NCBI GenBank assembly: GCA_030747075.1
Contig: JASLLL010000040.1
Coordinates: 1-16,621, forward strand
DNA: 16,621 bases
Source: Gemmatimonadota bacterium
GTDB taxonomy: Bacteria; ARS69
Direction: 5' to 3'
The stretch's first letter is position 1. Each line of letters opens with the position of its first letter. The notes under the pieces were generated by a model. The model had not been told where the DNA came from. It was given only the letters and a program-made list of their open reading frames with translations, and did not search any database. Below are positions 1 through 16,513 of the stretch, piece after piece. A program made the translations under genes and the position numbers.

Positions 1-560
1 TCGTGCCCGCGCTCTCCGGACCGATCTCCAGGACTCTCCACGACGACCTGTCCAATCTCCCCTCCCTCGCCGGGAAGTTCCGGCGGTTCCGGTTCCTTCG
101 CGCGGAGAACGGCCAGCGCAATCAGCCCCACGCCGATCGAGATTCCCATGTCCGCCACATTGAACACCGGCCACGAGTATCCCCCGGCGCTCAGATGGAT
201 GAAGTCCACCACCTCACCGAGACGCACGCGGTCCACCAGGTTGCCCAGTGCCCCTCCGAGAATGAGCGCCATCGGCCACCCGCGAAACACGGGCCGTGCG
301 GACCGGAGGAAGTGAACCACAAGAAAGACGGTCACCATCGAAGTCACGACGACGAAGGTCCAGCGCCCGCCGAGCTGGATTCCGAACGCCGCGCCTTTGT
401 TGAAGACGAAGGTCCATCGGAAGAAATCCCCGAGCACCGGGATCGACTGCCCGGGATACATACTCCACGCCACGAAGAGCTTGGTCGCCTGATCCAGCGC
501 GAGAATCAGAAACACCACGAAGGCAAACCCCGGCAACCCGGCGCGTGATCGTTCGGACAT
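1..560 (-). CDS. lspA: Lipoprotein signal peptidase II (partial, 3' end outside window)
   Basis: Inner-membrane aspartyl protease that cleaves the signal peptide from diacylated prolipoproteins. Reading from ATG at 560, 186 residues are visible with no stop before the left edge. Family motifs are in order: D23-x-x-T-K near the first membrane segment, FNKGAAFG at about 53-60, GGALGNLVDR at 102-111 and FNVADMGIS at 133-141. D110 and D137 sit where the catalytic aspartate pair lies in the family. Four hydrophobic segments fit the known topology (about 11-28, 66-84, 96-107, 136-152). After the last one there is a hydrophilic Pro/Glu/Gly-rich tail of more than 30 residues that runs off the window, so the protein is longer than the usual ~160 aa. 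A GGAGGG Shine-Dalgarno precedes the ATG. The gene starts 14 bp after the ileS stop, a common pairing. Confidence 0.93.
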   Translation of the reverse strand, partial: MSERSRAGLPGFAFVVFLILALDQATKLFVAWSMYPGQSIPVLGDFFRWTFVFNKGAAFGIQLGGRWTFVVVTSMVTVFLVVHFLRSARPVFRGWPMALILGGALGNLVDRVRLGEVVDFIHLSAGGYSWPVFNVADMGISIGVGLIALAVLRAKEPEPPELPGEGGEIGQVVVESPGDRSGERGH

Positions 561-574
561 GGGGGAGCCCTCCA

Positions 575-3500: not shown

Positions 3501-3733
3501 TATCGACAGACCAGGTCCTTGACGGTGCGGGCCAGCACATGGTGAACGCCGGGCCGCCCGTTCGCGGTGGGCGGGCCTTCGAAGAAGACGAACGGCTTCC
3601 CGCTACGACGAGACTCCACCGTTCGGGCGAAGGTATCGTTCGCCTTCCAGTGTTCGAGAATGCCGGTCTCCACCTCCGCAGGAGCGGGGCGTGCATCGGA
3701 CAGCGGATAAGCCGCCCGGACGGAGGGCGTCAC
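575..3733 (-). CDS. ileS: Isoleucyl-tRNA synthetase, type 2 (eukaryote-like IleS2)
   Basis: Class I synthetase that charges tRNA-Ile and edits mischarged valine; cytoplasmic. It has 1052 aa, the length of the IleS2 type. The N-terminal active-site segment FEGPPTANGRPG leads into GVHH (residues 62-65), where IleS1 enzymes have canonical HxGH. GWDTHGLPVE lies at 91-100. The CP1 editing domain shows TTTPWTLPGN at 231-240 and GTGIVHQAPAFGAED at 323-337 with the conserved Asp. DVWFDSG is at 526-532 and KMSKS at 601-605. An anticodon-binding helical region and a long C-terminal extension follow. The start is GTG at 3733, overlapping the stop of the upstream phosphorylase gene as GTGA, which implies translational coupling. 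An uninterrupted antisense frame of 874 codons on the plus strand is a GC-bias shadow. The enzyme call is certain; the subtype is strongly supported by motif and length. Confidence 0.97.
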   Translation of the reverse strand: MTPSVRAAYPLSDARPAPAEVETGILEHWKANDTFARTVESRRSGKPFVFFEGPPTANGRPGVHHVLARTVKDLVCRYQSMCGRHVSRRGGWDTHGLPVELEVEKALGISDKREIERMGIGEFNRRCRESVFTYLDQWRDITERIGYWVDMDEEYVTLENDYIESVWALLRKIADKGLIYQGYKVVPYSTRSGTTLSDHEVALGYREVEDPSITVRFRLAEEPGVSFLVWTTTPWTLPGNSGLAVHPEVDYVRARHDGEVVILAKDLAESVLGPDAEVLSTVPGRDLVGLRYEPLFDFFADRAAQHKNAFRVVPGDFVTTTDGTGIVHQAPAFGAEDLESAGRHDLPVIHSVDGEGKLTAEAGDFAGLWFKDADRPVLRDLRGRGLLFHETTCRHTYPFNWRGDDPLMYVAKRAWYIRTTDIAGRMVDLNREIRWVPSHIRDGRFGNWLENNVDWALSRERFWGTPLPIWVSDKTGRMEVVGSVAELSEKSGRDLSELDLHRPHVDEITWPDGEGGTMHRVPEVLDVWFDSGAMPFAQWHYPFENEEVAKEQFPADFICEGVDQTRGWFYSLHAIAALVEDRPAYRACLVTGLLMGEDGTKMSKSRGNTVDPWEAVDIGGADALRWFLVVTNTPWQSLRFSKGGVAEVSRKILDTVRNLYAFFARYANLDGFVPDAESAPPVSSRPVLDRWVLSRLNAVTGTVRTELDRYEVSRAGRAMESFVMEDLSNWFVRRSRARFWAPGFDEDKRAAYETLHECLSTVARLMAPFAPFLAERLHLDLREGSGVGPESVHLADYPHADDALVDAELERVMEDVRCVVRLGRAGRNRAAVKTRQPLSRVRIVPPEGGAVFGEHTSVVLEELNVREAEFGTPGEAVPGLSAKARFDVLGPRFGKSMKAVATAVAALSGEEVSRIERRGSISVRVADETHVISREEVIISHEDPDGWVLEREGGWSVALDLNIDDDLRNEGFAREIVNKIQFMRKSAGFSITDRIEVGFEGTDALRDAVKHHDDMIRRETQADRIVVPAGDGETREEWTINGEPAVLALRRV

Positions 3734-4569
3734 GACGACTCTCCCTCCAGAACTCCGCGAAGAAGCGCACCGACCCTCGGGGCGGCGGCCGCAGCGGCGC
3801 GGACCACTTCCTGATGCGCGAGCGGTTGGAGATCCTCCGGGAAGGCAAGGTCCGTCACCACGGAAACCCCCAGAACATCCATCCCGGCATGAACCGCGAC
3901 GATCGTCTCCGGCACGGTGGACATACCTACCAGATCCGCGCCCGCCAGACGGAGCATTCGGATCTCGGCGGGGGTCTCGTAATGCGGCCCGGATACCGCC
4001 GCATAGATTCCGCGTCGGGTAGCGACTCCGGCCGCAAGCGCGGCCGCCTCCGCCTGATGCAGGAGGGCACGAGAGTAGGCCTTCGACAGATCCGGGAAGC
4101 GCGGGCCGACGGTGTCGTCATTCGGACCGACGAGAGGATTGTCACCCATGAGATTCAGATGATCGGAAAGAAGCACCATGTCCCCGACTTCGAAGCCCGG
4201 ATTGATGGCGCCCGAGGCATTGGTCAGGGCGATCCACTTCGCGCCCAGCTCTCGCGCGACGCGTACCGGGAAAGTGGCCTCCTGAAGCGGGACCCCCTCG
4301 TAGTAATGCACGCGTCCGCGAAAGACGAGCACCGGCGCACCCGCAAGGCTCCCGAACTCCACGCGCCCGTCGTGGCCGTCTACGGAGCCGACCGGAAAGT
4401 GCGGGATTTCGGAATACGGAACGGACACCGCTTCGGTCAGTTCCACCGCATCGCTCAGACCGGACCCAAGCACGAGAGCCGCTCGTGGAGCGCGCATTCC
4501 GGAATCCGTGAGAAAAGCGGCCGCCTCTCTCATACGCTCCGAGAGCGGCGGCGTGGAGACTCCGCTCAT
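3730..4569 (-). CDS. Purine nucleoside phosphorylase, class II trimeric family
   Basis: Phosphorolysis of purine nucleosides to base plus ribose-1-phosphate, a purine salvage step in the cytoplasm. It has 279 aa, the usual length of the trimeric PNP family. Visible motifs are LGSGL (34-38, phosphate loop), FRGRVHYYEG (83-92), LTNASGAIN (115-123), SGPHYETPAEIRML (193-206) with the purine-contacting Glu, and GADLVGMSTVPE (210-221). Where human PNP has Asn243 in 'LITN', this protein has VVTD with Asp240. In the human enzyme that residue decides preference for 6-oxopurines, so substrate range may be broader or shifted (inference). The ATG at 4569 overlaps the divIVA stop (ATGA), and the stop overlaps the GTG of ileS. 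A methylthioadenosine phosphorylase of the same superfamily is an alternative, but the motifs fit PNP better. Confidence 0.9.
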   Translation of the reverse strand: MSGVSTPPLSERMREAAAFLTDSGMRAPRAALVLGSGLSDAVELTEAVSVPYSEIPHFPVGSVDGHDGRVEFGSLAGAPVLVFRGRVHYYEGVPLQEATFPVRVARELGAKWIALTNASGAINPGFEVGDMVLLSDHLNLMGDNPLVGPNDDTVGPRFPDLSKAYSRALLHQAEAAALAAGVATRRGIYAAVSGPHYETPAEIRMLRLAGADLVGMSTVPETIVAVHAGMDVLGVSVVTDLAFPEDLQPLAHQEVVRAAAAAAPRVGALLRGVLEGESS

Positions 4570-5171
4570 GTGGACGAACCCGCAGAGGACACGCCCTCTC
4601 CCGGAGGCGCGGACCCTTCGGAGGATTCGCGGACGGTCGCCGCGACCTCCTGCTCGAACCCGGCTTCCTCCGCAGTGGACGATGCGGAAGGCGAGGGCGG
4701 TGCAGAGCGGGGAGAGTCGGCGAAGTCGTCCACACTCACTTCCAGAATCTGCTTCTGGGAACGGAGCAGCGCCCGGAACCGCTCGATGAACGAAACCCGC
4801 TGGCGCTTCAGGTCATCCAGTTCCCCGCGGAGACGCGCCGCCTCACTGTGTGCGCGCGCCACGATCTTCTCCGCCTCAATGCCGGCGTTCTCCCGCACGA
4901 GCTTCGCTTCCTTTTCGGCGGTGGCAATCCGTTCCTCGGAGATCTTCCCTGCCGAAATCAGCGAGTCCCGGAGCCGCTCATCCAGCCCGCGATAGGACGC
5001 CAGTTCCTGCTCCAGGCGCGCGGTCTTCTCCTCTACCGACCGCTTTTCGGTCACGAGCGCCTCCATGCGATCCGCAATCACATCCAGATACGCGCGAACC
5101 TCCGCGGCGTCGAAACCGCGCGTCTTCTTCCGGAACGACTGGTTCCGAATATCCACGGGACCGATCTGCAT
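4566..5171 (-). CDS. divIVA: DivIVA-domain coiled-coil protein
   Basis: Membrane-curvature-sensing scaffold that in other bacteria directs septum placement or polar growth. It has 201 aa. The N-terminal DivIVA lipid-binding domain is recognisable: residues 1-30 with 'FRKKTRGFDAAEVRAYLD', matching the family F-x-x-x-x-R-G-Y/F-D-x-x-E-V-x-x-Y/F-L pattern. Residues about 30-145 form a long charged heptad-like coiled coil rich in Glu, Arg, Lys and Ala. Residues 150-201 are a low-complexity Ser/Pro/Ala/Glu tail, probably disordered. The ATG at 5171 has a strong purine-rich Shine-Dalgarno (GGGAGGGGGGAG). It sits between yggT and the nucleoside phosphorylase and just upstream of ileS/lspA, the same neighbourhood in which divIVA is found in many bacteria. 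The exact division role in this lineage is unknown. Confidence 0.88.
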   Translation of the reverse strand: MQIGPVDIRNQSFRKKTRGFDAAEVRAYLDVIADRMEALVTEKRSVEEKTARLEQELASYRGLDERLRDSLISAGKISEERIATAEKEAKLVRENAGIEAEKIVARAHSEAARLRGELDDLKRQRVSFIERFRALLRSQKQILEVSVDDFADSPRSAPPSPSASSTAEEAGFEQEVAATVRESSEGSAPPGEGVSSAGSST

Positions 5172-5199
5172 GGCACTCCCCCCTCCCGATGAAACGACC

Positions 5200-5499
5200 T
5201 CAGCTGAGTTTCAGCGCGCCCTCCCGGAGCGTACCGACAAGGAACGACTTCACCACCACCTGAACCAGAAGGATCGCGACGAGCACTGAGAAGTCCAGAC
5301 CGCCCAGGGGCGGCACATAGCGGCGGATCCTCATCAGCACCGGTTCGCTGAGCGATTGGATTGCGCGCACGACAGGATTGAACGGATCCGCGCCGACCCA
5401 CGAGCAGATCACATTCCCGATGAGGACATAGACATAGAGCGTGGCCAGTATGTCGAGCAGTCCGGCCAAGGCTCCCACGGCATTCGCCACCACGAACAT
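5200..5499 (-). CDS. yggT: YggT family integral membrane protein
   Basis: Small membrane protein of the YggT family, whose members are linked to osmotic-stress tolerance and, by gene context, to division. It has 99 aa from ATG 5499. There are two hydrophobic spans (about 2-33 and 67-90) flanking the conserved loop with SWVGADPFNPVVR and 'LSEPVLMRIRRYVPPLGGLDFS', the family hallmark (S-E-P-x-L-x-x-x-R-x-x-x-P-x-x-G-x-x-D-x-S). An in-frame GTG at 5502 is an alternative start, but the GGAGG Shine-Dalgarno is better placed for the ATG, which overlaps the yggS stop by one base (TGATG). It is followed by divIVA after a 28-bp gap. YggS-YggT-DivIVA adjacency is widespread and supports the call. Confidence 0.9.
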   Translation of the reverse strand: MFVVANAVGALAGLLDILATLYVYVLIGNVICSWVGADPFNPVVRAIQSLSEPVLMRIRRYVPPLGGLDFSVLVAILLVQVVVKSFLVGTLREGALKLS

Positions 5500-6188
5500 C
5501 ACTCCTCCCCCGGGGTGAAGATCCCCGTTCCGATCCGCACCATGGTGGACCCTTCCTCCACGGCGATCTCAAAGTCCCCCGTCATCCCCATGGACAAATC
5601 CGGCAGACGCGCCGCGCCGCCGAGGCTGTCCCGAAGTTCCCGAAGCGCACGAAAGGCCGCGCGCACCGGCTCCTCATCCTGCGTGAAAGGGGCCATTGTC
5701 ATGAGCCCCCGAACTGCGATCCCCGGCAGTGCCTCTACCGGGTCCAGCATGCCTTCCACCTCTTCCAAGGCGAATCCGTGCTTCGCCGGTTCTCCAGAGG
5801 TCTTCACCTCCAAGAGCACCGGCACGACACGCCCGGACTCCCCGGCGATTCGGGAGATCCGCTCCGCCAGCGAAAGGCGGTCGACGGACTGGATCTCCGC
5901 AAAGAGCCCTACCGCCCTGCGCGCCTTGTTCCCCTGCAGCGGGCCGATGAAATGCCACTCGACACCCGGCGGCAACTCCCCGACTTCGCGGATCTTCGGA
6001 GCCGCCACCTGCAGCCGGTTCTCCCCCAGGATCCGGACACCCGCGGCGACCGCTTCCCGCACTTCCTCCGGCCCGACCGTTTTTGTCACGGCGCACAGAC
6101 GAACCTCGGCCGGATCCCTTCCCGCTCGCCGGGCCGCCCCGGCGATCCTTGCGCGGATGCGCTCCAGGTTTGCAGCCACCGGGCTCAA
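5499..6188 (-). CDS. yggS: YggS/PROSC family pyridoxal-phosphate homeostasis protein
   Basis: PLP-binding protein with an alanine-racemase-like TIM barrel. It has no established enzymatic activity and acts in vitamin B6 and amino/keto-acid homeostasis. It has 229 aa, the typical length. AVTKTV at 33-38 places the PLP Schiff-base lysine at K36. Other family signatures are GENRLQ (55-60), WHFIGPLQGNKAR (78-90), LMTMAPF (162-168) and the phosphate-binding C-terminal stretch SMGMTGDFEIAV...GSTMVRIGTGIF (199-224). The start appears to be TTG at 6188, overlapping the tdk stop as TTGA, with GAGGGAG upstream. A GTG three codons further in is the alternative. Family assignment is firm; the unusual TTG start is inferred from coupling and spacing. 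Confidence 0.93.
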   Translation of the reverse strand: MSPVAANLERIRARIAGAARRAGRDPAEVRLCAVTKTVGPEEVREAVAAGVRILGENRLQVAAPKIREVGELPPGVEWHFIGPLQGNKARRAVGLFAEIQSVDRLSLAERISRIAGESGRVVPVLLEVKTSGEPAKHGFALEEVEGMLDPVEALPGIAVRGLMTMAPFTQDEEPVRAAFRALRELRDSLGGAARLPDLSMGMTGDFEIAVEEGSTMVRIGTGIFTPGEE

Positions 6189-6808
6189 GGCGCGGTGACT
6201 CCCTCCTCGTGGGCCGGATCCTCCGCGTCTTCGCGCGGCGCGGGCGGCAATACATCCGGGCTCCAGCAGGATCGACAGCGCGCTTCGTAGGCATCTCCGG
6301 CGCCGACCAGCACCCGATCCGACTCCGTGATGTTCCGCTGCGTACGGGTCGCCGGATGCCCGCAGACCACGCAGACGGCCGTCGTCTTGGTGACGCTCTC
6401 CGCAATGGCCATCAGTTGCGGAACCGGCTCAAAGGGTTCGCCACGATAATCCTGATCCAGCCCCGCCACAATCACCCGACGCCCTTCCGCGGAGAGGCGA
6501 TTCACGACATCCACGAGGTCCATCCCGAAGAACTGCGCCTCGTCGATCCCCACGGCTTTCGTCTCCGGCAGAACGAGCTGAAGGATGGACGCCCCATCCT
6601 CGACTTCGGTGGAGGGAATCCGCTGGCCGCTGTGCGAGACCACCTGGTCCGCCGCGTAACGACGGTCGATGCGCGGCTTGAATACCTGCACCTTTTGCCG
6701 GGCGATCCGCGCGCGCACGAGGCGGCGGATCAGCTCCTCGGTCTTGCCGCTGAACATCCCGCCACAGATGACTTCCACCCAGCCCACTTCGCCGACAACC
6801 GATGACAT
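6185..6808 (-). CDS. tdk: Thymidine kinase, type II (zinc-binding)
   Basis: Phosphorylates thymidine with ATP to dTMP in pyrimidine salvage; cytoplasmic, usually tetrameric. It has 207 aa from ATG 6808. The P-loop is GGMFSGKT at 16-23 and the Walker B-like segment DEAQFF is at 89-94, with E90 the likely catalytic base. The lasso/zinc domain has four cysteines as CVVCG (C146, C149) and CRSC (C178, C181). The reading frame extends far upstream, but family alignment puts the start at 6808 or at an in-frame GTG at 6817, which has better spacing to a GGGAGAG Shine-Dalgarno. The 40-bp gap upstream is the largest in the minus-strand run and has a possible promoter. Its stop overlaps the yggS start. 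Confidence 0.95.
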   Translation of the reverse strand: MSSVVGEVGWVEVICGGMFSGKTEELIRRLVRARIARQKVQVFKPRIDRRYAADQVVSHSGQRIPSTEVEDGASILQLVLPETKAVGIDEAQFFGMDLVDVVNRLSAEGRRVIVAGLDQDYRGEPFEPVPQLMAIAESVTKTTAVCVVCGHPATRTQRNITESDRVLVGAGDAYEARCRSCWSPDVLPPAPREDAEDPAHEEGVTAP

Positions 6809-6845
6809 CCAGTGCACACGACTCTCCCGGAAGATGACCCCCGGC

Positions 6846-6874
6846 AGCCTAGGCGTGGCCTTCGCGGGTGTCAA
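6846..6874 (-). promoter_or_regulatory. Putative sigma-70-type promoter for tdk and the housekeeping genes
   Basis: On the minus strand there is a perfect TTGACA (6874-6869), a 17-bp spacer, and TAGGCT (6851-6846), which keeps the three most conserved -10 positions (T1, A2, T6). The predicted start of transcription lies about 30 bases before tdk. The elements overlap the end of the UPF0104 gene: TTGAC comes from a Leu-Asp codon pair and TAG is its stop codon, so the match could be chance. The placement in the largest gap of the run supports a real function. Confidence 0.38.
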
Positions 6875-7889
6875 GCGGACGAGAGCGAACGGTGCGAACG
6901 AGAAGGACGCCGCCGACGGCAGCCGGAAGATAGAGGCTGGCCAGCCGCCACCACGCGAGGAAGGCAACGGTCTCCCCGGCCGGGAGGAAGGACGCCATGA
7001 ATGCCGCTGCGGAGACTTCGGCCGCACCCGCACCGCCGGGGGTCGGCGCGAAGAGCAGCGCAAGAGCCAGAAGCACCTGTGTTGCGAGAAGTTCCGCCGT
7101 GTGGCCATCGGGCTGGAATGCACGGAACACGGCCCAGGCGGTGGCCAGCTTCGCGGCGAAGACCGCGGCCGAGAGCGGAAGCACAGCGGCGACCCGTGCG
7201 GGATGCTGGCGGAACATCGTGCGAACATCGGCAGAAACGCGACACAGGAGAGCGCGTGCGGCGGCCAGTGCACGGTGAAAGCGTCGGGCGGGCGGGGAAG
7301 CGCCCGGCGGCCGTCCGGTACGCGCGCCCGTCGCAAGAAGGACCGTGCCGACGGCCACGACCGCCACGAACACACCGAGCGCGCCGCGAAGCGCGGCACC
7401 CATCCACCCGGGGAGACTTTCGGGAAGCGCCAGTGCGAACGCGCCTCCGGCGATTGCCAGCACCATCGCGCTGGCGAGAAAGTTCACTGACGCGACCGCG
7501 ACACCTCCGGCCAGCGGCAGCCCCGCGCGGTGCAGCACAAAGAGCTGCGCCGCCCCGCCACCCGCCTGCCCGGGGGTGAGCCCGGCCAGACACGCGTTCG
7601 CGAGGTTCGCGCGAAGGCAGGCGGCCAGCCTCACGCGGGGCGCGATCGGGGCGGCGAGAACATGCAGGCGAAGCGCACCCAGGGTCCAGTCGGCAAGGAC
7701 CAGGACGAACGCCAGCGCGAGATATGCCGGGACGGCGGGCGAAGGCGCCTGAAGCGCGACCACTCCACCGCGCAGGAAGACCGCACCCGCGAGTCCCGCC
7801 GCACCCAGCACGACGACAAGCAGAAACCCCAGCACCAGACGGCGCGGCGTCGCCCCCGGGAGCGGGTCCGGCGGCCTGCCGGGTTTCAC
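6849..7889 (-). CDS. UPF0104 / lysylphosphatidylglycerol synthase TM-region family protein
   Basis: Multi-pass inner-membrane protein of the flippase-like UPF0104 (AglD/MprF N-terminal-like) family; no substrate can be assigned. It has 346 aa from GTG 7889. About eight hydrophobic segments are visible (around 18-40, 52-70, 95-107, 124-152, 165-187, 232-252, 263-282, 303-333). Family motifs are NACLAGLTPGQAGGGAAQLF (97-116) and the hallmark PTPGGAGAAE (282-291). The frame is open to 7964, but the GTG at 7889 overlaps the stop of the upstream UnbV gene as GTGA and has a GGCGGAG Shine-Dalgarno, so I place the start there. No soluble aminoacyltransferase domain is attached, so it is not a full MprF. 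It is the last gene before the possible tdk promoter. Confidence 0.82.
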   Translation of the reverse strand: MKPGRPPDPLPGATPRRLVLGFLLVVVLGAAGLAGAVFLRGGVVALQAPSPAVPAYLALAFVLVLADWTLGALRLHVLAAPIAPRVRLAACLRANLANACLAGLTPGQAGGGAAQLFVLHRAGLPLAGGVAVASVNFLASAMVLAIAGGAFALALPESLPGWMGAALRGALGVFVAVVAVGTVLLATGARTGRPPGASPPARRFHRALAAARALLCRVSADVRTMFRQHPARVAAVLPLSAAVFAAKLATAWAVFRAFQPDGHTAELLATQVLLALALLFAPTPGGAGAAEVSAAAFMASFLPAGETVAFLAWWRLASLYLPAAVGGVLLVRTVRSRPLDTREGHA

Positions 7890-9511
7890 TCTCCGCCTTC
7901 CATGATCTCGTGATAGCGACCCGCCTCCGGACGGACGCTCGCCTGACGCCGCCCGCCGGGCCACCTCACCACGACGGAGTCCGGTTGCGCGTCTCCCAGT
8001 CCGAAGAGAACCCTGGGGTCGTTCCCGGAGAGATAGCTCCCCCCCGCCTGCACATCGGCGATGCGAACCGCGCCCCCCGCGTGGAGCGTGACGCGCGCGC
8101 CCAGTCCGTCGCGCCCGGATTCCCGGCCGGTGATGCGGAAGCCGATCCAGCGCAGGGACCCGGGCCCCGTGTTCTCCAGGAGGACGGCGGGGCCGTTCTG
8201 GCTGTTGAGGAGAATGTCGGTGTCTCCGTCATTGTCGAGATCCGCGAACGCCACGCCTCGCCCTGCCCGCGGCGTTTCAAGAACAGGCGCGTACTCGGCG
8301 GCGACCTCACGGAAAGTCCCGTCCGGCTGCGCGTGAAAGAGGAGGTCGGGCTGTTTCCAGGTGGCAGCCTGATCGACTTCGGCGATGTCGGGCTCTACAT
8401 GCCCGTTGGAAACAAAGAGGTCCAGCCGTCCGTCCAGGTCGAAGTCCAGAAAGCCGATCCCCCACCCCATGCGCGGGAGGCTCGGGGAACCGATCCCGGC
8501 CACCGCGGAGCGTTCGAGAAAGAACCCGCCGCCGTCATCCCGGTAGAGCGTGTTCGGCTCGTTCTGGAAGTTTGTGACGACCAGATCCATCCGCCCGTCC
8601 GCGTCGTAGTCCGCAGCGGCGACACCCATCCCGGCCTGTTCCATTCCCTCTTCGCTGTACGCCGTTCCCGAGAACATCCCCGACTCTTCAAATGCACCGC
8701 CACCCAGATTGCGGAAGAAGAAGTTGGGGTCCATGTCGTTCGCGACATACACATCCACGAGCCCGTCATCATCGAGATCGGCGGCCAGGCACCCCAGGCC
8801 TCGGCCGGCCACACCCGAAAAGCCGGCGGACTCCGTGGCATCCACGAACCGCCCCTCGCCCGCGTTGCGATAGAACACATCCGTCTGTCTCGGATAGAGA
8901 CCCGGAAGGCAGTAAATGCGAAGCACTCCGTGAACGCCGTAGCACTCGTTCGTGTCCGGATCGGCGACGGCGACATAGTTCGCCAGATAGAGATCGGGAA
9001 GACCGTCGAGGTCGGCGTCGAAGAAGGTGGCCCCCGCACCCCAGCGCGGATCGTCCAGTCCTCGCACGGCGGCCTCCTCCGCAAAGGTGCCGTCCCCCCG
9101 ATTCACGAACAGCCGGTTCGGCCCCCAGGCTGTGACGAAGAGGTCGGCGTCCCCGTCGTTGTCGATGTCGGCGGCGGTGGCTCCCATGCCGTAGCCCGCA
9201 TCTCCGACGCCTGCCTCAGCCGTCACATCGCGAAAGTGAAGGTCTCCGAGGTTTCGGAAGAGACGGCTTTGCCCGACGCTTGAAACGAAGTAGATGTCCA
9301 GGAGCCCGTCGCCGTCGTAGTCCAGAACGCAGACGCCGGAACCCATGACTTCCTGATAGGGTTTGTCGCCGGTCGCGCCGTTGGAGTGCGTGAATCGCAG
9401 ACCGGACGCAGCCGTGGCATCACGGAAGACCGGCTCGGCGGCGGCCGTCGAGAACGCAAGAATGGCAAGGAGCGCGCACAGGAGAGTCATGCGGGCCATC
9501 CTTCCGCGCAT
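7886..9511 (-). CDS. Secreted FG-GAP/VCBS repeat protein with C-terminal ASPIC/UnbV domain (CRTAC1-like)
   Basis: Predicted exported calcium-binding beta-propeller; its function in bacteria is not established. It has 541 aa from ATG 9511. The N-terminus MRGRMARM plus a hydrophobic stretch ending STAAAEP looks like a Sec signal cleaved near residue 25. Seven Asp-rich repeats with D-x-D-x-D-G-x-x-D follow: DYDGDGLLDIYF (64-75), DIDNDGDADLFV (115-126), DADLDGLPDLYL (165-176), DLDDDGLVDVYV (245-256), DYDADGRMDLVV (301-312), DFDLDGRLDLFV (356-367) and DLDNDGDTDILL (424-435). The C-terminal UnbV domain (about 453-535) includes GLGARVTLHAGG, GGSYLSGNDPRVLFGLG and VVVRWPGG. Alternative starts are ATG 9499 and ATG 9490; the last has the best Shine-Dalgarno spacing but lacks the positive n-region. 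It lies downstream of the reductase genes in the same run. Confidence 0.88.
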   Translation of the reverse strand: MRGRMARMTLLCALLAILAFSTAAAEPVFRDATAASGLRFTHSNGATGDKPYQEVMGSGVCVLDYDGDGLLDIYFVSSVGQSRLFRNLGDLHFRDVTAEAGVGDAGYGMGATAADIDNDGDADLFVTAWGPNRLFVNRGDGTFAEEAAVRGLDDPRWGAGATFFDADLDGLPDLYLANYVAVADPDTNECYGVHGVLRIYCLPGLYPRQTDVFYRNAGEGRFVDATESAGFSGVAGRGLGCLAADLDDDGLVDVYVANDMDPNFFFRNLGGGAFEESGMFSGTAYSEEGMEQAGMGVAAADYDADGRMDLVVTNFQNEPNTLYRDDGGGFFLERSAVAGIGSPSLPRMGWGIGFLDFDLDGRLDLFVSNGHVEPDIAEVDQAATWKQPDLLFHAQPDGTFREVAAEYAPVLETPRAGRGVAFADLDNDGDTDILLNSQNGPAVLLENTGPGSLRWIGFRITGRESGRDGLGARVTLHAGGAVRIADVQAGGSYLSGNDPRVLFGLGDAQPDSVVVRWPGGRRQASVRPEAGRYHEIMEGGE

Positions 9512-9522
9512 CGTCAGTCCAG

Positions 9523-9801
9523 TCAAGCCTTCGGCGGGCGCGTGTAGATCATGACATAGGAACTGCACACCGACAGCGCGCAACTCTCACACGCGTCGGC
9601 GAAGTCCTCCGGACCGAGCTTCTCAATGCGAACCTCGTGCCCGAGCGACTCATACAGCTCCACCACCTCATCCACGCGTGACGGGTCCGACAGGTTCCGC
9701 CGGACCCACCCCTGCGCTTCGAGATCCCGATTCGGCAGCGCCCCGGTGAAGACAAGCGGCTTCGACTCCCCGGGGTCTCCCCCGCCGCCGCAACCCGTCA
9801 C
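9523..9801 (-). CDS. Small conserved-looking protein with CxxC-x4-C motif, coupled to the bzdQ-like gene
   Basis: I do not recognise a named family. It has 92 aa, starting at GTG 9801 that overlaps the stop of the upstream activase gene as GTGA. After a Gly-rich start (with C4) comes a compact alpha/beta-looking body: LVFTGALPNRDLEAQGWVRR, then a helix DEVVELYESLG, a strand EVRIEKL, and PEDFADACESCALSVCSS, ending in YVMIYTRPP. The cysteines C70, C73 and C78 could bind a metal or an Fe-S cluster, but there are too few for a bacterial-type ferredoxin. Codon use matches the neighbours (GC-rich third positions), so it is very likely translated. The early Gly/Cys stretch is not a convincing lipoprotein signal because no hydrophobic core precedes it. 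Context suggests an accessory role to the reductase (inference only). Confidence 0.72.
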   Translation of the reverse strand: MTGCGGGGDPGESKPLVFTGALPNRDLEAQGWVRRNLSDPSRVDEVVELYESLGHEVRIEKLGPEDFADACESCALSVCSSYVMIYTRPPKA

Positions 9802-10631
9802 GCGCTTCGAGCCTCTGCCGGAGAGTCGGCCGCCTCAGCCGCGAGCTTCTCCAGTCGACGATGCCCCAGTGCCGCCGCACCCAGCGCGGAGACGAACTGC
9901 ACCATCTCCGGATCCGGCACATTGACTTCGGCCTTCAGTTGATCGCGAACGGCGGCCACCATCGTCGAAAAGCGAATGATGCCGCCGATCAGTGTGAATT
10001 CCGGCTCCGCCTTGACACGCTTTATGAGTTGCACGGAGCGCGTCGTCAGCGACTCAATGGCACCCTGCATGATGTCGGAGGGCGGCGTGCCGAGCGAGAG
10101 ATGGTTGATCACTTCCGACTCCGCAAAGACCGCGCAGACGCCCGAGATGGCCACCGCTTCCTTCGATGTCTGGAGAAGCGGACCGATCTCTTCGGTGGTG
10201 TAACCCATGTAACGGGCAGTCTTTTCCAGGAACGCGCCGGTTCCGGCGGCGCACTTGTCGTTGAGGCGGAAGGCGTGGACCTTCGCGGTCTCGTCCAGCC
10301 GGCTGGCCTTCATCGTCTGCCCGCCGACATCGAGCACGGTGCGCGTGCCGGGGAAGAGACGCGCCGCGCCGCGTGCGCTGGAGGTGAGGTCGGTCACCTG
10401 GAGATCCCGAAAGTCCACCTGGTGCCGTCCGATTCCCGTGGCGACAACATAGGTGATGTCCTCTTCCGTGACGCCAGCCTCCGCCAGACAGGTCTCATAC
10501 ACCTCACGCGAAACCTGCGTCAGCTTGAAACCGGTCGGCTTCATCGCACGGTGCAGGATCTCTCCCTTTTCGTCGAGAAGGAGCGCCTTTGTGTAGGTGG
10601 ACCCGACATCGAGTCCCGCCGTGATCGTCAT
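9798..10631 (-). CDS. bzdQ: BzdQ-like ATP-dependent activase subunit of a benzoyl-CoA reductase-type complex
   Basis: ASKHA-fold ATPase of the HgdC/BadF/BcrA/BcrD family, which uses ATP hydrolysis to push a low-potential electron from a [4Fe-4S] cluster into the partner reductase subunits. It has 277 aa from ATG 10631. Motifs are [17 protein letters not shown] (7-23, phosphate 1), [11 protein letters not shown] (100-110, phosphate 2, with Thr106 where HgdC-type proteins and its partner have Asp), [14 protein letters not shown] (124-137), [13 protein letters not shown] (162-174) and GGIIRF (216-221). C127 and C166 coincide in position with the two HgdC cysteines that bridge the dimer-interface cluster. 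The frame is open far upstream, but the ATGA overlap with the preceding activase gene and domain alignment set the start. Its size fits the short BzdQ rather than the longer Thauera BcrA. Confidence 0.85.
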
Positions 10632-11446
10632 GACGCAGCCTCCTTGTTCGCCTCGGGAACACGGCTCGCGAGGATGTGGTCCAGTGCAAAGAGCGACGCC
10701 CCCAGCGCGCCGATGTAGTGCGAGTCCTCGCTGATGTTCAGCTTCGTCTCCAGCTTGTCCTCGATCGCCCGGACCATGCCGATGTTTCGAGTCACGCCCC
10801 CGGTGAAAGTCACCTCCTCTTCGATCCCGACACGGCGAAGGAGCCCGGCGGAGCGAATGGCGATCGACTTGTGAACGCCCCAGAGGATGTCCTCGATCTT
10901 CTTCCCCTTCCCGAGCCACGACAGCACTTCGGATTCCGCAAACACCGTACAGGTGGTGCTGATCTTTGTGGACTTGACCGAACGGAGCGCCGTCTCGCCG
11001 AGCTTCTCCAGCGGGATGTCGAGCGCGCTGGCTGCCGCACCGAGGAATCGGCCGGTCCCGGCGGCGCACTTGTCGTTCATGCAGAAGTCGACGATTTCGC
11101 CCGTCTCGTTCACGCGGATGGCCTTCGTGTCCTGCCCGCCCATGTCGACCACGGTGCGCGTTTTGGGAAAGAGGTGGACCGCGCCGCGACCGTGACAGCT
11201 GATTTCGGTAACCTGATCGTTGCCGAAAGTGACTCGGTAGCGCCCGTAGCCGGTGCCAATGATGTACTCCACTTCGTCTTCACCGATGTTCGCGTCGTCA
11301 AGCGCAAGCTGAAACGCGTTCTCTGCCGCGGAGACCACATTGGCCCCTGTGTCGATGAGCGAGCGCCCGACAAGATTGCGGTCCTCGTCGATGATCGCCG
11401 CCTTCGTCTGCGTGGAACCGACATCCACGCCCCCTGCGTAAGCCAT
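10628..11446 (-). CDS. bzdP: BzdP/BcrD-like ATP-dependent activase subunit
   Basis: Second, non-identical ASKHA activase, 272 aa, expected to pair with the BzdQ-like protein as a heterodimer with a bridging [4Fe-4S] cluster. Motifs are [16 protein letters not shown] (7-22), GTGYGRY (64-70), [13 protein letters not shown] (100-112, canonical GGQD-x-K), [12 protein letters not shown] (124-135), [18 protein letters not shown] (165-182) and FTGGVTRN (214-221). C127 and C166 are the predicted cluster ligands. The ATG at 11446 has a near-consensus AGGAGG Shine-Dalgarno 10 bp after the upstream stop, and its own stop overlaps the next activase start. Two different activase genes in tandem are typical of benzoyl-CoA reductases. 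Simple 2-hydroxyacyl-CoA dehydratases use one homodimeric activator. This is the main reason for the reductase call. Confidence 0.85.
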
Positions 11447-11456
11447 GAAACCCCTC

Positions 11457-12752
11457 CTAGCCGATGGCCGCCTGTTTGCGACGCGATGCCAGCCCCTCGA
11501 AGAACGCGTCGATGCGGTTCTTCATCTGCGCCTCGGAAACGACGCGGCGATCCATCATGTCCGACTCCAGGAAGAGGCTCGGGAGCCCGAGCTTCTCCGA
11601 CATGTTCTTCCGACTGTCCGCAAGCCCCGTTGAGACCGTTCGACAGCTCTTGATGGGATGATAGACCACTCCGTCCAGATCAAAGTCTCTGGCCATCTCT
11701 TCGATCATCCGGTCCGAGTAAAACATGGAGTCCATCGCGTCCCGCACGCTCACAAGAACACCCTCTGCCAGACTCTCGATGGGGCGCTCCAGATCGTACT
11801 GGAACCCGCTGTGGGTTCCACCGGACGCGAACCAGAGATAGGTGGAGTGGACGAAGTTGCCGCCCCACTCGGTAAAGAGCTCATTGAAGCGGCGGAAGAT
11901 CGGATAGCAGGGAACACCGACAAACACGAGCCGGTAGAGCTCCTCGCTGAGAGTTCCGATTCCGTTCGCCGACTTGTACTCCAGTTCCTCGACGAGTTGG
12001 TCGAAGTACTCCGCGCCTTCCTTCGTCCCGCGAAACCCGTTCGCCACGCCCAGGAAGATGGTGCCGTCGGTGAGCGCACTGAATAGCGACGGCTTCGACG
12101 CATTCAGTTCCAGCGCACGCTTCCATCCGGTGTTCATTCTGTTCGCGTATCCCAGGACTTCCCGCAGGCGGTCAATATCGAACTTCTTCCCCGTCACTTC
12201 CTCGCAGAGCGTGATCAGTTCGGTGAGCTGCACCTCCACATACTTGCGATCGTTCTCGAAGTCCGGGTTGCCCCGCCAGGTCTGCGTGCCGTCCTGCCGC
12301 GTGCCGGGAACATCGAGCGTGAAGAGACGCGTCCCGTGCATCCGCTCCCAGATCTCGCCCCACTTGATGTAGGTGTTGCAGGCATTCGTCAGCACCGCAA
12401 TCGTGGGCTTGGGCACACGCCCCATGGGGAGTTCGCCACCGCGAAGCTGCGTGGCCACATCCGCCTTCACATAGCCGCAGATGTCGGGGGAATACCCCAC
12501 ATCCTCCGCTTCGGCCAGATAGTCATGCGCCACATGGCGCACCGCCGTCTGCAGTGAGTTGATCTCCGGAAAGACCACAGGGAGATCGAAGGTCTTCAGG
12601 ATCTCGTTGATGCTGCCCATCACGAAGACATACGCCGACTGCCCGCCGTTCTCCGCGGTATCGCCGAGTTCGGTGAACCACTCCCGAAAGAGCCGGGCGC
12701 CGTCCTTGTTTCCGCGCCCGACGATTCCCTCTGTCTCAGGCTGCTTGCCCAT
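11457..12752 (-). CDS. bzdO: BzdO/BcrB-like benzoyl-CoA reductase family subunit
   Basis: 2-hydroxyacyl-CoA dehydratase/benzoyl-CoA reductase (HgdB-type) subunit, 431 aa, close to the known size of BcrB and BzdO. In the characterised enzyme this subunit helps form the substrate site and holds a [4Fe-4S] cluster. Visible features are [20 protein letters not shown] at 41-60, SPDICGYVK at 88-96, [18 protein letters not shown] at 121-138, VGVPCYPIF at 278-286, [18 protein letters not shown] at 364-381 and [20 protein letters not shown] at 394-413. The last two are strong family signatures. C92, C125 and C370 are the likeliest cluster ligands by spacing (inference). The ATG at 12752 is preceded by AGAAGGAG. 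It lies 30 bp after the bzdN-like gene. Substrate cannot be proven from sequence. Confidence 0.85.
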
Positions 12753-12782
12753 GGACTTCTCCTTCTGCGATTCGGTCGCGCT

Positions 12783-13946
12783 CTATGCGAAGAGCAGGTT
12801 TTCCAGGAAGGTCTCGACCTGCAGCTCGAGATGCTCAAACGAGGTCATGCTCTCTTCGAACTCGGTCACGAAGTACGGGATGTCCTGCTCGTCCAGTTCC
12901 TGCGAGTAGGCGACCTGCTCTTCGAGGCCCGGCTCGCACATCTTGGCGGCTGCGATGATGGCCGCTTCCGCGCGAGAGCCACGGATGCGTTCGACGAGCA
13001 TCTTCTCCTTCGGCTTGCGAAGGTCGTGCTGGACCGGGCTGTATGAGGAGCGCTCCAGATACGATTCCGCAAGTTCGTGAAGAGGATCGTCCGTGGCGGG
13101 CACATCTTCCGTGAGGTATCGCAGACCGATCAGGAAGTCATCGTCCACGACATAACAGGTGCGCCCGAGCATCCGGATGAGGTCGATCGGCGGCTGCTCG
13201 CAGAACGCGCCTTCGAAGACGACGCGGATGCGGTCGGCCGCCTTGGCCGAGCGTTCGCGAATCTGAGGAAGGACCGTGCGGAGAAGGTCGTTGTGCTCCT
13301 CGCGGGGGATGAGCCCCGCCACGGCCACGAGACAGTAGGCGTCTTCCGCCGACAGAAGCCACGGAGTCTCGCGCTTGATGTCGTAGAGGTCGCGCATGAG
13401 GCGGCGGTTCTCGTTGAACACCTCGATGGAACGATTGAGATCCTCGGCGGAGATGGAACACCCGGCCACTTCTTCGACGGATCGGCGGAGCCGGTCGTAC
13501 TCCCCGCGAAGGTAGGTGGCGCTGTGCGCGGAGTTGGGGTTTTGCGGAAGGTAGAGAATCTGGCACGGGTAGTCGAAGTTCCGCGCCCAGATGGCGGCGA
13601 GATTCCGGGCCGCGTCGCAGATGGGGTGCGAGACGAACATATCCAGCGGGATCCGGCCGTCCGCCCCGACTTCGAGCGCGGTCTTCAGAATGGAACAGAG
13701 GTAGCTTCCGAAGTGAGAGTCCGCGTTTGTCGGCTCCACGGGCGCGCCGCACATCTTGACGGGAAGCATCCCGGCGGCGTGCGCGATCTCCTCCGGAAAG
13801 TAGACCTGAAAGTGACCGAGCACCTTTCCGCCTGCGTCGCGCCATCGGTGAACCGTCGGCATGTCCGTGTCCTCGACGAGATCCCTGCACGCGAGCAGGG
13901 CATCATCGAGCGATTGGTCCCGCCATTCGGGAAAGACATTCGTCAT
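12783..13946 (-). CDS. bzdN: BzdN/BcrC-like benzoyl-CoA reductase family subunit
   Basis: Second 2-hydroxyacyl-CoA dehydratase/BCR-family subunit, 387 aa, matching the size of BcrC/BzdN. Residues 44-61 (GHFQVYFPEEIAHAAGML) are the family's N-terminal signature. SHFGSYLCSILKTALE (77-92) and SHPICDAARN (106-115) carry C84 and C110. FEGAFCEQPPIDLIRMLG (244-261) leads to VVDDDF (266-271). AAKMCEPGLEEQVAYSQELD (333-352) carries C337 and is followed by IPYFVTEFEE. C84, C110 and C337 are the probable [4Fe-4S] ligands by comparison of spacing with dehydratase subunits (inference). The ATG at 13946 is 4 bp past the tetR stop, with its GGAGTGA Shine-Dalgarno in the end of tetR, so it is cotranscribed with the regulator. 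It could instead be a 2-hydroxyacyl-CoA dehydratase subunit, but the four-gene set favours a reductase. Confidence 0.85.
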   Translation of the reverse strand: MTNVFPEWRDQSLDDALLACRDLVEDTDMPTVHRWRDAGGKVLGHFQVYFPEEIAHAAGMLPVKMCGAPVEPTNADSHFGSYLCSILKTALEVGADGRIPLDMFVSHPICDAARNLAAIWARNFDYPCQILYLPQNPNSAHSATYLRGEYDRLRRSVEEVAGCSISAEDLNRSIEVFNENRRLMRDLYDIKRETPWLLSAEDAYCLVAVAGLIPREEHNDLLRTVLPQIRERSAKAADRIRVVFEGAFCEQPPIDLIRMLGRTCYVVDDDFLIGLRYLTEDVPATDDPLHELAESYLERSSYSPVQHDLRKPKEKMLVERIRGSRAEAAIIAAAKMCEPGLEEQVAYSQELDEQDIPYFVTEFEESMTSFEHLELQVETFLENLLFA

Positions 13947-13950
13947 TCGA

Positions 13951-14571
13951 TCACTCCGTCGTTGGGGGTGTCGTGGGAGATGGCTGGAATCCGGCCGCGC
14001 CGCTGAAAAAGAGGTTCAGCACATGGTCAAGACGGGCGTCGTCGTCAGGAAAAACGCGGCGGGCGTGGGGACCCATGGTGACTTCCACGATCGCCACGAA
14101 CGACCACGCGAGAAGCCGCGCATCGCCCGGGGACAGTTCCCCAGACCGGATGCCGTCTTCGACGATCCGCTGCACCGGTTCCGGCAGGGCGGACTGGTAC
14201 GCACGCACGAGTTCGGAACGCACGGAATCGGGGAAGGCGTTGAGGTCGCGCCGCACCAGGCGAATGAGGTCACGCTTGCGGTCCGGCAGCGCGAAGAACG
14301 CGGCCGTGAGGCGACGCAGGCGGGCGCGTGCCGTGCCGGTGGACTCCGCGGCGTGCCGGAAGAGCCCGCCCTTCTCGGCGAAGTCGCGGCGGAGCATCCC
14401 GGCGTAGAGCGCCTCCTTGCCAGCGAAGTGGTGGTAGAGCGCGCCCTTGGTCACCGACGCCGAGCGTGCGATCCGATCCATCGTCACATCCGCGTAGTTC
14501 CGCTCCAGGAAGAGCCCTTCGGCGGCGTCGAGAATGTGCGCGACGGTCGTTTCGGCCTTCGTCATGAGCAC
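13951..14571 (-). CDS. TetR/AcrR-family transcriptional repressor
   Basis: Predicted ligand-responsive DNA-binding dimer, 206 aa, first gene of the minus-strand run. The N-terminal TetR domain is clear: AHILDAAEGLFLERNYADVT (11-30), then the helix-turn-helix with MDRIARSASVTKGALYHHF (31-49) and GKEALYAGML. The C-terminal ~140 residues are a helical ligand/dimerisation domain with no recognisable specificity; an acyl-CoA or aromatic ligand would fit the context (inference). GTG at 14571 has GAAGGGAG 5 bp upstream. ATG at 14565 is the alternative. A 30-bp palindrome next to a good promoter lies 78 bp upstream of the start codon, suggesting autoregulation together with the downstream reductase genes. 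Confidence 0.92.
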   Translation of the reverse strand: MLMTKAETTVAHILDAAEGLFLERNYADVTMDRIARSASVTKGALYHHFAGKEALYAGMLRRDFAEKGGLFRHAAESTGTARARLRRLTAAFFALPDRKRDLIRLVRRDLNAFPDSVRSELVRAYQSALPEPVQRIVEDGIRSGELSPGDARLLAWSFVAIVEVTMGPHARRVFPDDDARLDHVLNLFFSGAAGFQPSPTTPPTTE

Positions 14572-14591
14572 GGCGGCTCCCTTCGGGAAGC

Positions 14592-14648
14592 GGTGTGCGA
14601 CCGGGATCCGGGCCCGGCACGCCTCCCGGGCCGGGTGTGCGACCGGGA
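14592..14648. repeat. 15-bp direct repeat in the tetR leader
   Basis: GGTGTGCGACCGGGA occurs at 14592-14606 and again at 14634-14648, with starts 42 bp apart (about four helical turns). The stretch between holds GC-rich self-complementary sequence: CCCGGC at about 14613-14618 can pair with GCCGGG at about 14630-14635. It sits between the palindromic operator and the tetR start codon, inside the predicted 5' leader. It may be a second regulator site or a duplication; function unknown. Confidence 0.6.
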
Positions 14649-14678
14649 GGGTACATACCGACTGGTCGGTATGTACCC
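14649..14678. promoter_or_regulatory. Palindromic operator, probably bound by the adjacent TetR repressor
   Basis: GGGTACATACCGAC (14649-14662), two bases TG, then the exact inverse GTCGGTATGTACCC (14665-14678). Fourteen perfect base pairs on each side are far beyond chance. The core ACCGAC-N2-GTCGGT is of the kind seen in many TetR-family operators. It abuts the predicted -10 of the tetR promoter and covers the predicted transcription start, the ideal place for repression. Confidence 0.82.
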
Positions 14679-14707
14679 ATATTCCGCCTCTCCTCCCTCT
14701 GAGTCAA
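14679..14707 (-). promoter_or_regulatory. Putative sigma-70-type promoter of the tetR-bzd-like operon
   Basis: On the minus strand TTGACT (14707-14702) is followed by exactly 17 bp and then GAATAT (14684-14679). The -35 matches 5 of 6 consensus bases; the -10 matches A2, A5 and T6 only. The operator palindrome begins at the very next base, so the start of transcription would lie inside it, leaving a leader of about 100 nt before tetR. The position relative to the operator raises confidence in an otherwise modest -10. Confidence 0.5.
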
Positions 14708-15106
14708 GCCCTTTTGGGGTGTTGCGGTGATTGTTGGTGGCTGGCGGGAGGGCCGTCGGTTCCGCTCTGGCTGACGGGAATCGCTAGCCCCGGAAGCGGT
14801 TCTGGTTGTGCCACTCCAGATTCTCGCGAGAGGGCTGCCGGGCGCCTTCCCGAGGGACGGCCAGTTCGTGGCCATGAAGGCCTTCATGGGTTGCGAGAGG
14901 TGTCGCCCAGGGCCATCGCCCTCCCCCTCTCTATGCTTATCCTGCGACCCGCGCAGCATAACACCCCGTGTCCACCCCGCCATCCCCCCGTTTATGGTAT
15001 CGTTCCCTACGCGTTCTTCCGTCTCCGACCGCTCCTCGGCGACTTCGCCTCCGTCCCCCCGGACCCCATCCCGCGTCCATCTCCGACGCCTGAAGGAGGC
15101 TCCTTC
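14708..15106. other. Intergenic region between divergent tetR and propeller genes
   Basis: About 400 bp with no convincing gene; frames running through it are continuations of neighbouring coding frames without plausible starts, or shadows. The only clear structure is an 18-bp palindrome (separate entry) and a 10-bp palindrome TCTCGCGAGA at 14822-14831. The right half (about 14920-15090) is pyrimidine-rich and probably holds the promoter and leader of the plus-strand gene, but I see no promoter good enough to name. A GAAGGAGG Shine-Dalgarno lies at 15092-15099. Confidence 0.6.
14872..14889. promoter_or_regulatory. 18-bp perfect palindrome, possible operator
   Basis: CCATGAAGGCCTTCATGG is its own reverse complement, with no spacer. 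It lies in the non-coding region about 220 bp upstream of the plus-strand gene and about 165 bp upstream of the tetR promoter. By simple counting a palindrome this long is expected by chance well under once in a window of this size. Its sequence is unrelated to the TetR-type operator, so another regulator would be needed. Confidence 0.4.
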
Positions 15107-16513
15107 ATGACCCTCCCACTCCCGCGGGTCGCCCGTCACCGGTTCCGCCTTGCCGGGCCCTTCCCCGCCGCCTTGGCGGGCGCGCTCGCAGCCTTGGCGC
15201 TCTTCGCCGCGTCACCTTCATCCGCCTGCGATCCCGGCTCCTCCGCGGCGGCATCCCCCGGCGTGCGCTCCTCCTGCGACATCCTCACCACCTCCACGCC
15301 GTTCACGCCGCACCCCGCAAACCCCATCGCCGAGGCCCCCGCCTGGTTCCCGACCGAGTACAACTGCTTCTCCGTCGTGAAGGACTCCGTCGGTTATGTG
15401 CTCCTCTTCTGGAGCCCCCCCACCGGTTTCCACCGGCTGACCTCCATCGACGGCGTCACCTGGGCTCCGCCGGACTCGCTGCCGGTCGTACCGACCAACA
15501 GTCACTGGTACACGGGCATCAAGTGCCCCGACCTCCGCTTCGACGGCGACGATCTCATCCTCTACTTCACGGGCAGCCTCCCCTCTGCGGGCATGGCGAT
15601 CGGCCGCGCCGTCTCGACCGATCGCGGGGTTACCTGGAGCGTCCATCCGACGCCCGTTCTCACGCAGACCGAACCGTACGAACTCGAACGCGTCGACTCC
15701 CCTTCCGTCGTCCGCTACGGCGGTCAGTTCGTCATGAGCTACATGACCGAATCCGGGATCAACTTCCACACCAGCATCGCGTTCTCCCCCGACGGGATCA
15801 CCTGGACGAGGCATCCCGGCAATCCCGTGATCACCGCCGCACCCGGAACCTGGTACGACAGTTCCGCCGGGCGACCGCGCCTCCTGCCCGACCCCGACGG
15901 TACCGCGCTCCACCTCTTCTTTACCGGGACAACCGACGGGCGCCCACGCTGCGCGAGGATTGGACACTCCGTCTCCTCCGACACGGCCCAGACCTGGACG
16001 ACCGACCCCCTTCCGGCGCTGGACTTGAACCCGGGAGACGGCACATGGAACGACATCAGCGTCTGGTGTACGAGCTTCGTGTGGGAGGGTTCCCGCCTGT
16101 CGGCGTACTTTGTCGGAGTGAGTTCCGATCCGCTGGCACACGATCAGTCGCTCGGCCTCGCTCAGGCCGTGTGGCCGCTCAACTCCGCCGTGGACGCTCC
16201 CGCACCACAGACGCTCCCTCCCGGTGGCGCGGACGCGCTCCTCGCGTCCCCCAACCCGTTCACGCGGACGACCTCCATCCGCTTCGCGCGGAACATCCCG
16301 CTCGCGGAAGGGAGCGCAAGCGTCTCAGTTCACGATGTTGCGGGAAGGCTCGTGCGAAGAATCTGGACGGGCGCCGCCACCGCCGTCCCGGGGCTTTTCG
16401 TCTGGGACGGCCACGACGATGAGGGCAACGCTGTCGCCTCGGGGCGGTATCTCGTACGCGCAACAAATGACGGGGCCGCTGTCGCCGCGGTCTGGGTCAC
16501 GCGGCTTCGGTAG
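15107..16513 (+). CDS. Secreted Asp-box beta-propeller protein with FlgD-like C-terminal sorting domain
   Basis: It has 468 aa, starting at ATG 15107 behind GAAGGAGG. The N-terminus has a basic region (RVARHRFR) and a hydrophobic core (about 20-35) ending ASPSSA|C, a Sec signal; Cys41 makes a weak lipobox. The body resembles a five-bladed propeller as in GH43/GH32 or sialidase-like proteins, with four Asp-box-like repeats: SIDGVTW (113-119), STDRGVTW (170-177), SPDGITW (227-233) and SSDTAQTW (290-297). Short strands such as LILYFTG and LHLFFTG alternate with these. Residues about 378-468 form a FlgD-type Ig-like C-terminal domain: SPNPFTRTTSIRF, VSVHDVAGRLVRRIW, FVWDGHDDEGNAVASGRYLVR. In FCB bacteria such domains occur at the end of exported or surface proteins. 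I cannot identify catalytic residues, so enzymatic activity is open. The upstream extension of the frame lacks a Shine-Dalgarno. Confidence 0.85.
   Translation: MTLPLPRVARHRFRLAGPFPAALAGALAALALFAASPSSACDPGSSAAASPGVRSSCDILTTSTPFTPHPANPIAEAPAWFPTEYNCFSVVKDSVGYVLLFWSPPTGFHRLTSIDGVTWAPPDSLPVVPTNSHWYTGIKCPDLRFDGDDLILYFTGSLPSAGMAIGRAVSTDRGVTWSVHPTPVLTQTEPYELERVDSPSVVRYGGQFVMSYMTESGINFHTSIAFSPDGITWTRHPGNPVITAAPGTWYDSSAGRPRLLPDPDGTALHLFFTGTTDGRPRCARIGHSVSSDTAQTWTTDPLPALDLNPGDGTWNDISVWCTSFVWEGSRLSAYFVGVSSDPLAHDQSLGLAQAVWPLNSAVDAPAPQTLPPGGADALLASPNPFTRTTSIRFARNIPLAEGSASVSVHDVAGRLVRRIWTGAATAVPGLFVWDGHDDEGNAVASGRYLVRATNDGAAVAAVWVTRLR

Follow-up and report, generated by a model that had tools for sequence, protein, structure and literature searches.

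A TetR-controlled operon predicted to encode a class I aryl-CoA reductase of the MBR subtype, with a conserved small companion gene, in a barely sampled bacterial phylum

Benzoyl-coenzyme A (CoA) reductase (BCR) is the usual marker for anaerobic degradation of aromatic compounds. The class I enzymes, which hydrolyse one ATP per electron transferred (PMC11971306), include the bcrCBAD product of Thauera, in which two HGD-D subunits are combined with two activases, BzdNOPQ (PDB 8s02, 8s1t, 8s2r), and MbdNOPQ, the 3-methylbenzoyl-CoA reductase of Azoarcus/Aromatoleum sp. CIB (PDB 9g87, 9gai, 9gal, 9gba), which is of the MBR subtype. Class I BCRs have already been published from uncultured phyla, namely Krumholzibacteriota, of the Fibrobacteres-Chlorobi-Bacteroidetes (FCB) type (PMC10936416), and Chloroflexi, Aminicenantes and TA06 (PMC6472368). 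Here we describe a locus in a stretch of 16,621 nucleotides (the window, in the following), contig JASLLL010000040.1 of the Gemmatimonadota bacterium assembly GCA_030747075.1 (ARS69 in the GTDB lineage). As judged from sequence, it is very probably an operon under TetR control that specifies an ATP-dependent class I aryl-CoA reductase of the MBR (MbdNOQP) subtype, with benzoyl-CoA or ring-substituted benzoyl-CoAs as the likeliest substrates. A preliminary description of the locus had taken it for a bzdNOPQ-like operon spending two ATP per electron, in a lineage not known for BCRs; the literature cited above gives a different ATP count and already reports class I BCRs in FCB-type phyla, and the type assignment is revised below. 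The enzyme itself belongs to a known kind, and the interest of the locus lies in the breadth of its clade, in the low scores that curated models give it, and in a fifth gene that follows the reductase genes.

On the minus strand, the genes run in the order TetR, N, O, alpha activase, delta activase and a small open reading frame. The N gene (12783-13946) encodes an MbdN-like gamma subunit of 387 aa, predicted to transfer electrons, and the O gene (11457-12752) an MbdO-like beta subunit of 431 aa, predicted to carry the catalytic [4Fe-4S] cluster and to bind the aryl-CoA. Both are full-length members of the HGD-D family (PF06050, 216 and 203 bits, cut-off 28), and the genome, a 2.67-Mb assembly of 61 contigs rated 100% complete, encodes no further PF06050 protein. 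Two ATP-binding activases follow, an MbdQ-like alpha subunit of 272 aa (10628-11446) and an MbdP-like delta subunit of 277 aa (9798-10631), which match PF01869 and TIGR00241 (267 and 208 bits, cut-off 125), share only 40% identity and both contain the bridging-cluster cysteines Cys127 and Cys166; two different HGD-D subunits with two different activases of this kind are the composition of a class I BCR. The small frame (9523-9801, 92 aa, GTG start), here called the fifth gene, encodes a CxxC protein, and the operon begins with the gene for a TetR-family regulator (13951-14571; PF00440, 60.7 bits). Intergenic gaps are of 4 to 30 nt, the N start lying 4 nt past the TetR stop, and 4-nt overlaps join alpha to delta (ATGA) and delta to the fifth gene (GTGA). 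The preliminary description was right about the two BCR/dehydratase-family subunits, the two different activases and their tight packing. Its operon, 9798-13946, contains these four genes but omits the regulator, its operator and the fifth gene, and of its order N-O-P-Q the N-O part stands, while its P is the MbdQ-like alpha and its Q the MbdP-like delta.

Among PDB sequences, each subunit has its Mbd counterpart as best match, at 55-70% identity: N matches MbdN (9g87_B, E=4.6e-157, 57.9%), O matches MbdO (9g87_A, E=3.7e-160, 55.2%), the first activase MbdQ (9gai_D, E=9e-122, 69.6%) and the second MbdP (9gai_C, E=4e-93, 57.2%), whereas the crossed activase pairings reach 39-41%. After Mbd, N and O match HadBC, BzdNO and the double-cubane cluster protein (DCCP) at 1e-41 or weaker. 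In a concatenated N+O tree, the MBR clade is set off from the bcr-type outgroup at 100/100, and the Azoarcus Mbd sequences, on a long branch, are nested deep within it, joined at 100/100 with KSB1 and the genomes G057 and G331. The window pairs with G002, a genome of the same family, at 99/96, and an 11-row subclade supported at 99/95 contains the pair. Quick separate N and O trees, which took in Had-type and BZD sequences (for N also DCCP) and whose deeper long-branch joins were not used, recover the same MBR clade, with the window N and O beside MbdN and MbdO and apart from the BCR, BZD and Had types. The idea of a class I two-activase dearomatising reductase that is not a 2-hydroxyacyl-CoA dehydratase is upheld; that of a new subtype outside the known clades is not.

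The likeness to MbdNOPQ extends to the two unequal activases, the TetR-family regulator, the ATACN10GTAT operator and the partner enzymes dienoyl-CoA hydratase (DCH), 6-hydroxycyclohexenoyl-CoA dehydrogenase (HAD) and 6-oxo hydrolase (OAH). The organization differs. The reductase genes of the window run N-O-Q-P, whereas in Azoarcus mbdO is given as the leading gene of the operon (PMC4424350); the TetR gene opens the operon, whereas mbdR forms a separate one; and the small fifth gene follows, with no transporter or methylbenzoate-CoA ligase adjoining. With bcrCBAD the locus shares the subunit composition and the downstream pathway, but it falls in a separate clade, and bcr-type loci have a long activase (424-438 aa).

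The downstream pathway is found on another contig of the same genome (C38), which carries HAD-OAH-DCH-SDR genes. OAH scores 547 bits (cut-off 464) and HAD 493 (339), while DCH, at 284, stays just short of its cut-off of 292.5; the three partner enzymes are counted as present, OAH supplying the ring-cleavage step that the preliminary description had proposed to look for. In G057, the genes HAD-OAH-DCH-SDR lead straight into N-O-alpha-delta-fifth gene on one strand, and the separately sampled loci L149 and L150 show the same arrangement of pathway genes beside the reductase. Across 83 loci, a count that takes in the window and C38, OAH occurs in 33, HAD in 27, DCH in 27, SDR in 17 and thiolase in 13, while a PaaX-like regulator is present in nine. 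This is the Bcr-Dch-Had-Oah logic of the published BCRs from uncultured phyla, FCB relatives included.

As for the cluster and active-site residues, Cys92 and Cys125 of O align with Cys95 and Cys128 of BzdO, and Cys370 (in KSCRTV) and the Glu of FPEINS correspond to Cys380 and Glu65 of BzdO by motif only, the aligned BzdO fragment (75-300) covering neither. O has in this way the three-Cys [4Fe-4S] site and the catalytic Glu of a class I O/B subunit, and it retains the thioester-side tyrosines described for BzdO (PMC11971306). In N, the cluster cysteines 84, 110 and 337 are kept and invariant; Cys249 is invariant across the clade, MbdN and the bcr type, and Cys264 nearly so.

Some observations weigh against an MBR-type reductase of benzoyl-CoAs. 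All four subunits fall far below the curated NCBIfam equivalog cut-offs for the known types, with 247, 205, 215 and 144 bits against 421, 487, 578 and 313 for the bcr type (TIGR02263/TIGR02260/TIGR02259/TIGR02261) and 94, 91 and 185 against 454, 449 and 380 for the bzd type (TIGR03190/TIGR03191/TIGR03192). Bcr-type loci of other genomes (L041, L042, L043) do exceed the NCBIfam cut-offs. Given the low scores, curated annotation does not name the MBR type, and they suggest that the bcr gene annotation on which the published BCRs of uncultured phyla rest would not pick it out. In addition, the assembly does not join the pathway genes of C38 to the operon, and a benzoate-CoA ligase, which the preliminary description had suggested looking for, was not found above its cut-off in the genome, where the three AMP-ligases are two FadD-like proteins and one acetate-CoA ligase. 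Finally, three residues of O that lie in the catalytic pocket or close to it depart from MbdO, being Ala124, Tyr128 and Val280 where MbdO has Tyr, Phe and Thr. Ala124 and Tyr128 occur in 67/67 clade relatives and Val280 in 66/67; the position of Tyr128 is that of His131 in BzdO and is Phe also in the bcr type. The enzyme may therefore act on a different substrate from MbdNOPQ.

These pocket residues, together with the missing ligase, are the grounds for the alternative that survives best, namely that the enzyme is an MBR-clade reductase whose main substrate, instead of benzoyl-CoA or a methyl derivative, is a different aryl- or cyclic-CoA thioester, which might be hydroxylated, halogenated or heteroaromatic; two reductase copies in some genomes (L087/L088, L094/L098, L050/L122) would fit it as well. 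It is a possible reading, though we consider it rather unlikely, because the scores of OAH and HAD exceed the cut-offs of models whose names refer to the unsubstituted benzoyl-CoA pathway, and a 4-hydroxybenzoyl-CoA-reductase-like gene adjoins the operon in L053, which points to benzoyl-CoA as substrate. The BZD-type reductase of the preliminary description has in its favour two short activases, an N-O-activase-activase order as in bzdNOPQ and a fifth gene that occurs in some BZD-type clusters too, but it is very improbable: identity to BzdN and BzdO is 25-26%, against 58% to MbdN and 54-55% to MbdO, the BzdN model gives the 94 bits reported above, the trees set BZD apart from MBR, and BzdN cysteines 36, 263 and 293, common to DCCP, are replaced by Gln47, Leu272 and Ser303, so that tree and residue tests already refute it. 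MbdN and the bcr type likewise lack these three cysteines, and a double cubane of the BzdN kind therefore cannot be assumed in the window enzyme. Hardly credible, finally, is a 2-hydroxyacyl-CoA dehydratase (HgdABC/HadABC-like) or a DCCP with its activator, proteins of the same superfamily (HadC E=2.5e-41, HadB E=1.2e-32, DCCP E=2e-17), given that MbdN and MbdO match better by more than 100 orders of magnitude, that N and O do not group with HadBC, that the two distinct activases each have their own MBR counterpart, that two different subunits are present with only 3/6 candidate DCCP cluster cysteines (Cys84, Cys110, Cys337), and that dearomatising pathway genes occur in the genome and in the operons of relatives.

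For the class I reductase of the MBR subtype the following mechanism is proposed. Reduced ferredoxin, probably from a KorA-type oxidoreductase, would reduce the [4Fe-4S] cluster bridged by the alpha and delta activases. ATP hydrolysis would then drive single electrons into N and from there to the O subunit with its [4Fe-4S] cluster, where the CoA-bound aromatic ring would be reduced to cyclohexadienoyl-CoA. The C38 enzymes would complete the sequence, DCH hydrating, HAD oxidising and OAH opening the ring. The genome encodes a KorA-type 2-oxoacid oxidoreductase alpha subunit (660 bits, cut-off 483), NarG (1436 bits, cut-off 1084) and one haem-copper oxidase, a set that fits a respiring facultative anaerobe with a ferredoxin supply, for which nitrate may be an electron acceptor.

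The control region lies upstream of the TetR gene and consists of a perfect 30-bp palindrome with core ATACCGACCAGTCGGTAT. The palindromic operator ATAC-N10-GTAT (14655-14672, core of GGGTACATACCGAC-CA-GTCGGTATGTACCC) adjoins a sigma-70-like candidate promoter, TTGACT-N17-GAATAT (14679-14707, minus strand), read by eye only and placed just before the operator. ATACN10GTAT is also the operator of Azoarcus MbdR, a TetR repressor (PMC4424350). In 20 loci a TetR-family gene immediately precedes N, and the motif is present in 11 of them, the window counted, against 0.3 expected from shuffles; in the non-TetR loci it is found once in 60, against 0.6 expected, the single case being the close relative G002. 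These counts support a putative MbdR-like regulatory circuit at the locus. Many TetR proteins have similar operators, and therefore the operator match does not establish the effector; among the solved-structure matches of the window TetR protein, no MbdR entry appears as a near relative.

Of the 55 loci with enough space past delta, 47 have a homologue of the fifth gene, in most cases immediately behind delta, and so do 6/8 loci from a separate genome survey (one of these, L147, is the same as L049), the two without it being the most divergent MBR loci. The protein has invariant W32, C71, C74 and T87, and nearly invariant G31, E45, Y50, G54, E56 and R88. It belongs to no Pfam or NCBIfam family and has no credible match among PDB sequences; the pentatricopeptide-repeat matches of its profile in the PDB involve only 14-17 residues and are taken as chance. 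An AlphaFold2 model has a strand-helix-strand-helix-strand core, mostly of high confidence (mean predicted local distance difference test score, pLDDT, 79), in which the CxxC opens the second long helix. A fold search of the protein gave no hit below E 0.4, most of the hits being weak ones to nucleoside diphosphate kinases. A profile search among 386 genomes sampled around the window genome finds the fifth gene in 16, and in 15 of these class I BCR-like or benzoyl-CoA-pathway genes lie within a few kb; L170 (6053-6331, G105) holds the only homologue without a benzoyl-CoA-pathway gene found nearby. The neighbourhoods include BZD-type clusters (BzdN 54-61%, BzdO 62-66%), L166, L167 and L171 carrying the fifth gene. 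Neither the bcr-type loci tested nor the plasmid collection yielded it. As it recurs beside MBR and BZD genes without a known family, the fifth gene is, as far as the libraries searched show, an undescribed companion of these systems, and it could be one of the Azoarcus bzdS/T/U.

A scan of genomes with the N alignment gave 287 relatives. The best 80 have 66-80% identity, cover essentially all of N and come nearly all from metagenome-assembled genomes (MAGs); they belong to Planctomycetota, Gemmatimonadota, Chloroflexota, Marinimicrobia, Pseudomonadota and Zixibacteria, as well as to Eisenbacteria, KSB1, Acidobacteriota, Myxococcota and Bdellovibrionota. The MBR clade covers at least 10 phyla. 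MBR-type N is present in 11 of the 386 sampled genomes. A literature search turned up no account of MBR-type enzymes from these phyla, which is weak evidence of absence, subscription journals lying outside its coverage. No relatives of the alpha subunit were found in viral contigs, and the HGD-D proteins of the plasmid collection are all distant ones; the plasmid locus of Azoarcus KH32C, considered as a bzd locus, was ruled out as a dehydratase-type cluster with one activase.

The phylum of the window is barely sampled, with five genomes of one family, in agreement with the candidate-phylum origin supposed at the outset. The MBR type is found in two of the five and the bcr type in two others, and the remaining genome, 67% complete, has neither; the bcr-type genomes, G003 (L042) and G004 (L043), carry a bcrCBAD reductase above the NCBIfam cut-offs in place of the MBR type. 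Such a mixture within one phylum suggests exchange of class I reductase types between lineages.

Some individual loci deserve mention. L152 and L153 (G350, G221) are a more divergent MBR-like pair, whose N shares 49-50% identity with MbdN and 58% with the window; both lack the fifth gene, have weak OAH matches and may represent another subtype. Two identical MBR clusters, L095 and L096, lie in opposite orientation on one contig (JASMMN010000024) of a Phycisphaerales MAG, a doubling that could have arisen as an error of assembly or by recent duplication. In L168 (G365), an MBR operon, N is split into several frames and alpha is also split, with O, alpha, delta and the fifth gene following. Genes for an extra HadB-like single subunit, an activase-family protein and a CoA-ligase-like protein are found beside the reductase in L095 (762-2851) and L093 (14325-18967), MBR loci of Planctomycetota and Marinimicrobia, respectively.

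The flanks of the window (1-9583 and 14534-16513) hold seemingly ordinary housekeeping and secreted genes. Named from their translations alone are LspA, IleS, purine nucleoside phosphorylase, DivIVA-like, YggT, YggS and thymidine kinase-like proteins, a membrane flippase-like protein and a secreted protein with an FCB-type C-terminal tail, while an FG-GAP/ASPIC protein is assigned by Pfam.

The nested position of the Azoarcus sequences suggests that the methylbenzoate specialist MbdNO may descend from an environmental MBR branch. We propose tentatively, and with some doubt, that the fifth gene encodes an overlooked accessory of about 70 residues with a CxxC motif, which in MBR and BZD complexes might, for example, deliver or protect the bridging [4Fe-4S] cluster, and that the environmental MBR clade, with the Azoarcus enzyme as a derived tip, constitutes a widespread and largely unannotated route of ring reduction in uncultured bacteria. 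With scores so far under the cut-offs, surveys relying on bcr/bzd annotation would probably overlook MBR-type enzymes, and the conserved fifth gene offers a concrete handle on the assembly or protection of these oxygen-sensitive, ATP-driven complexes.

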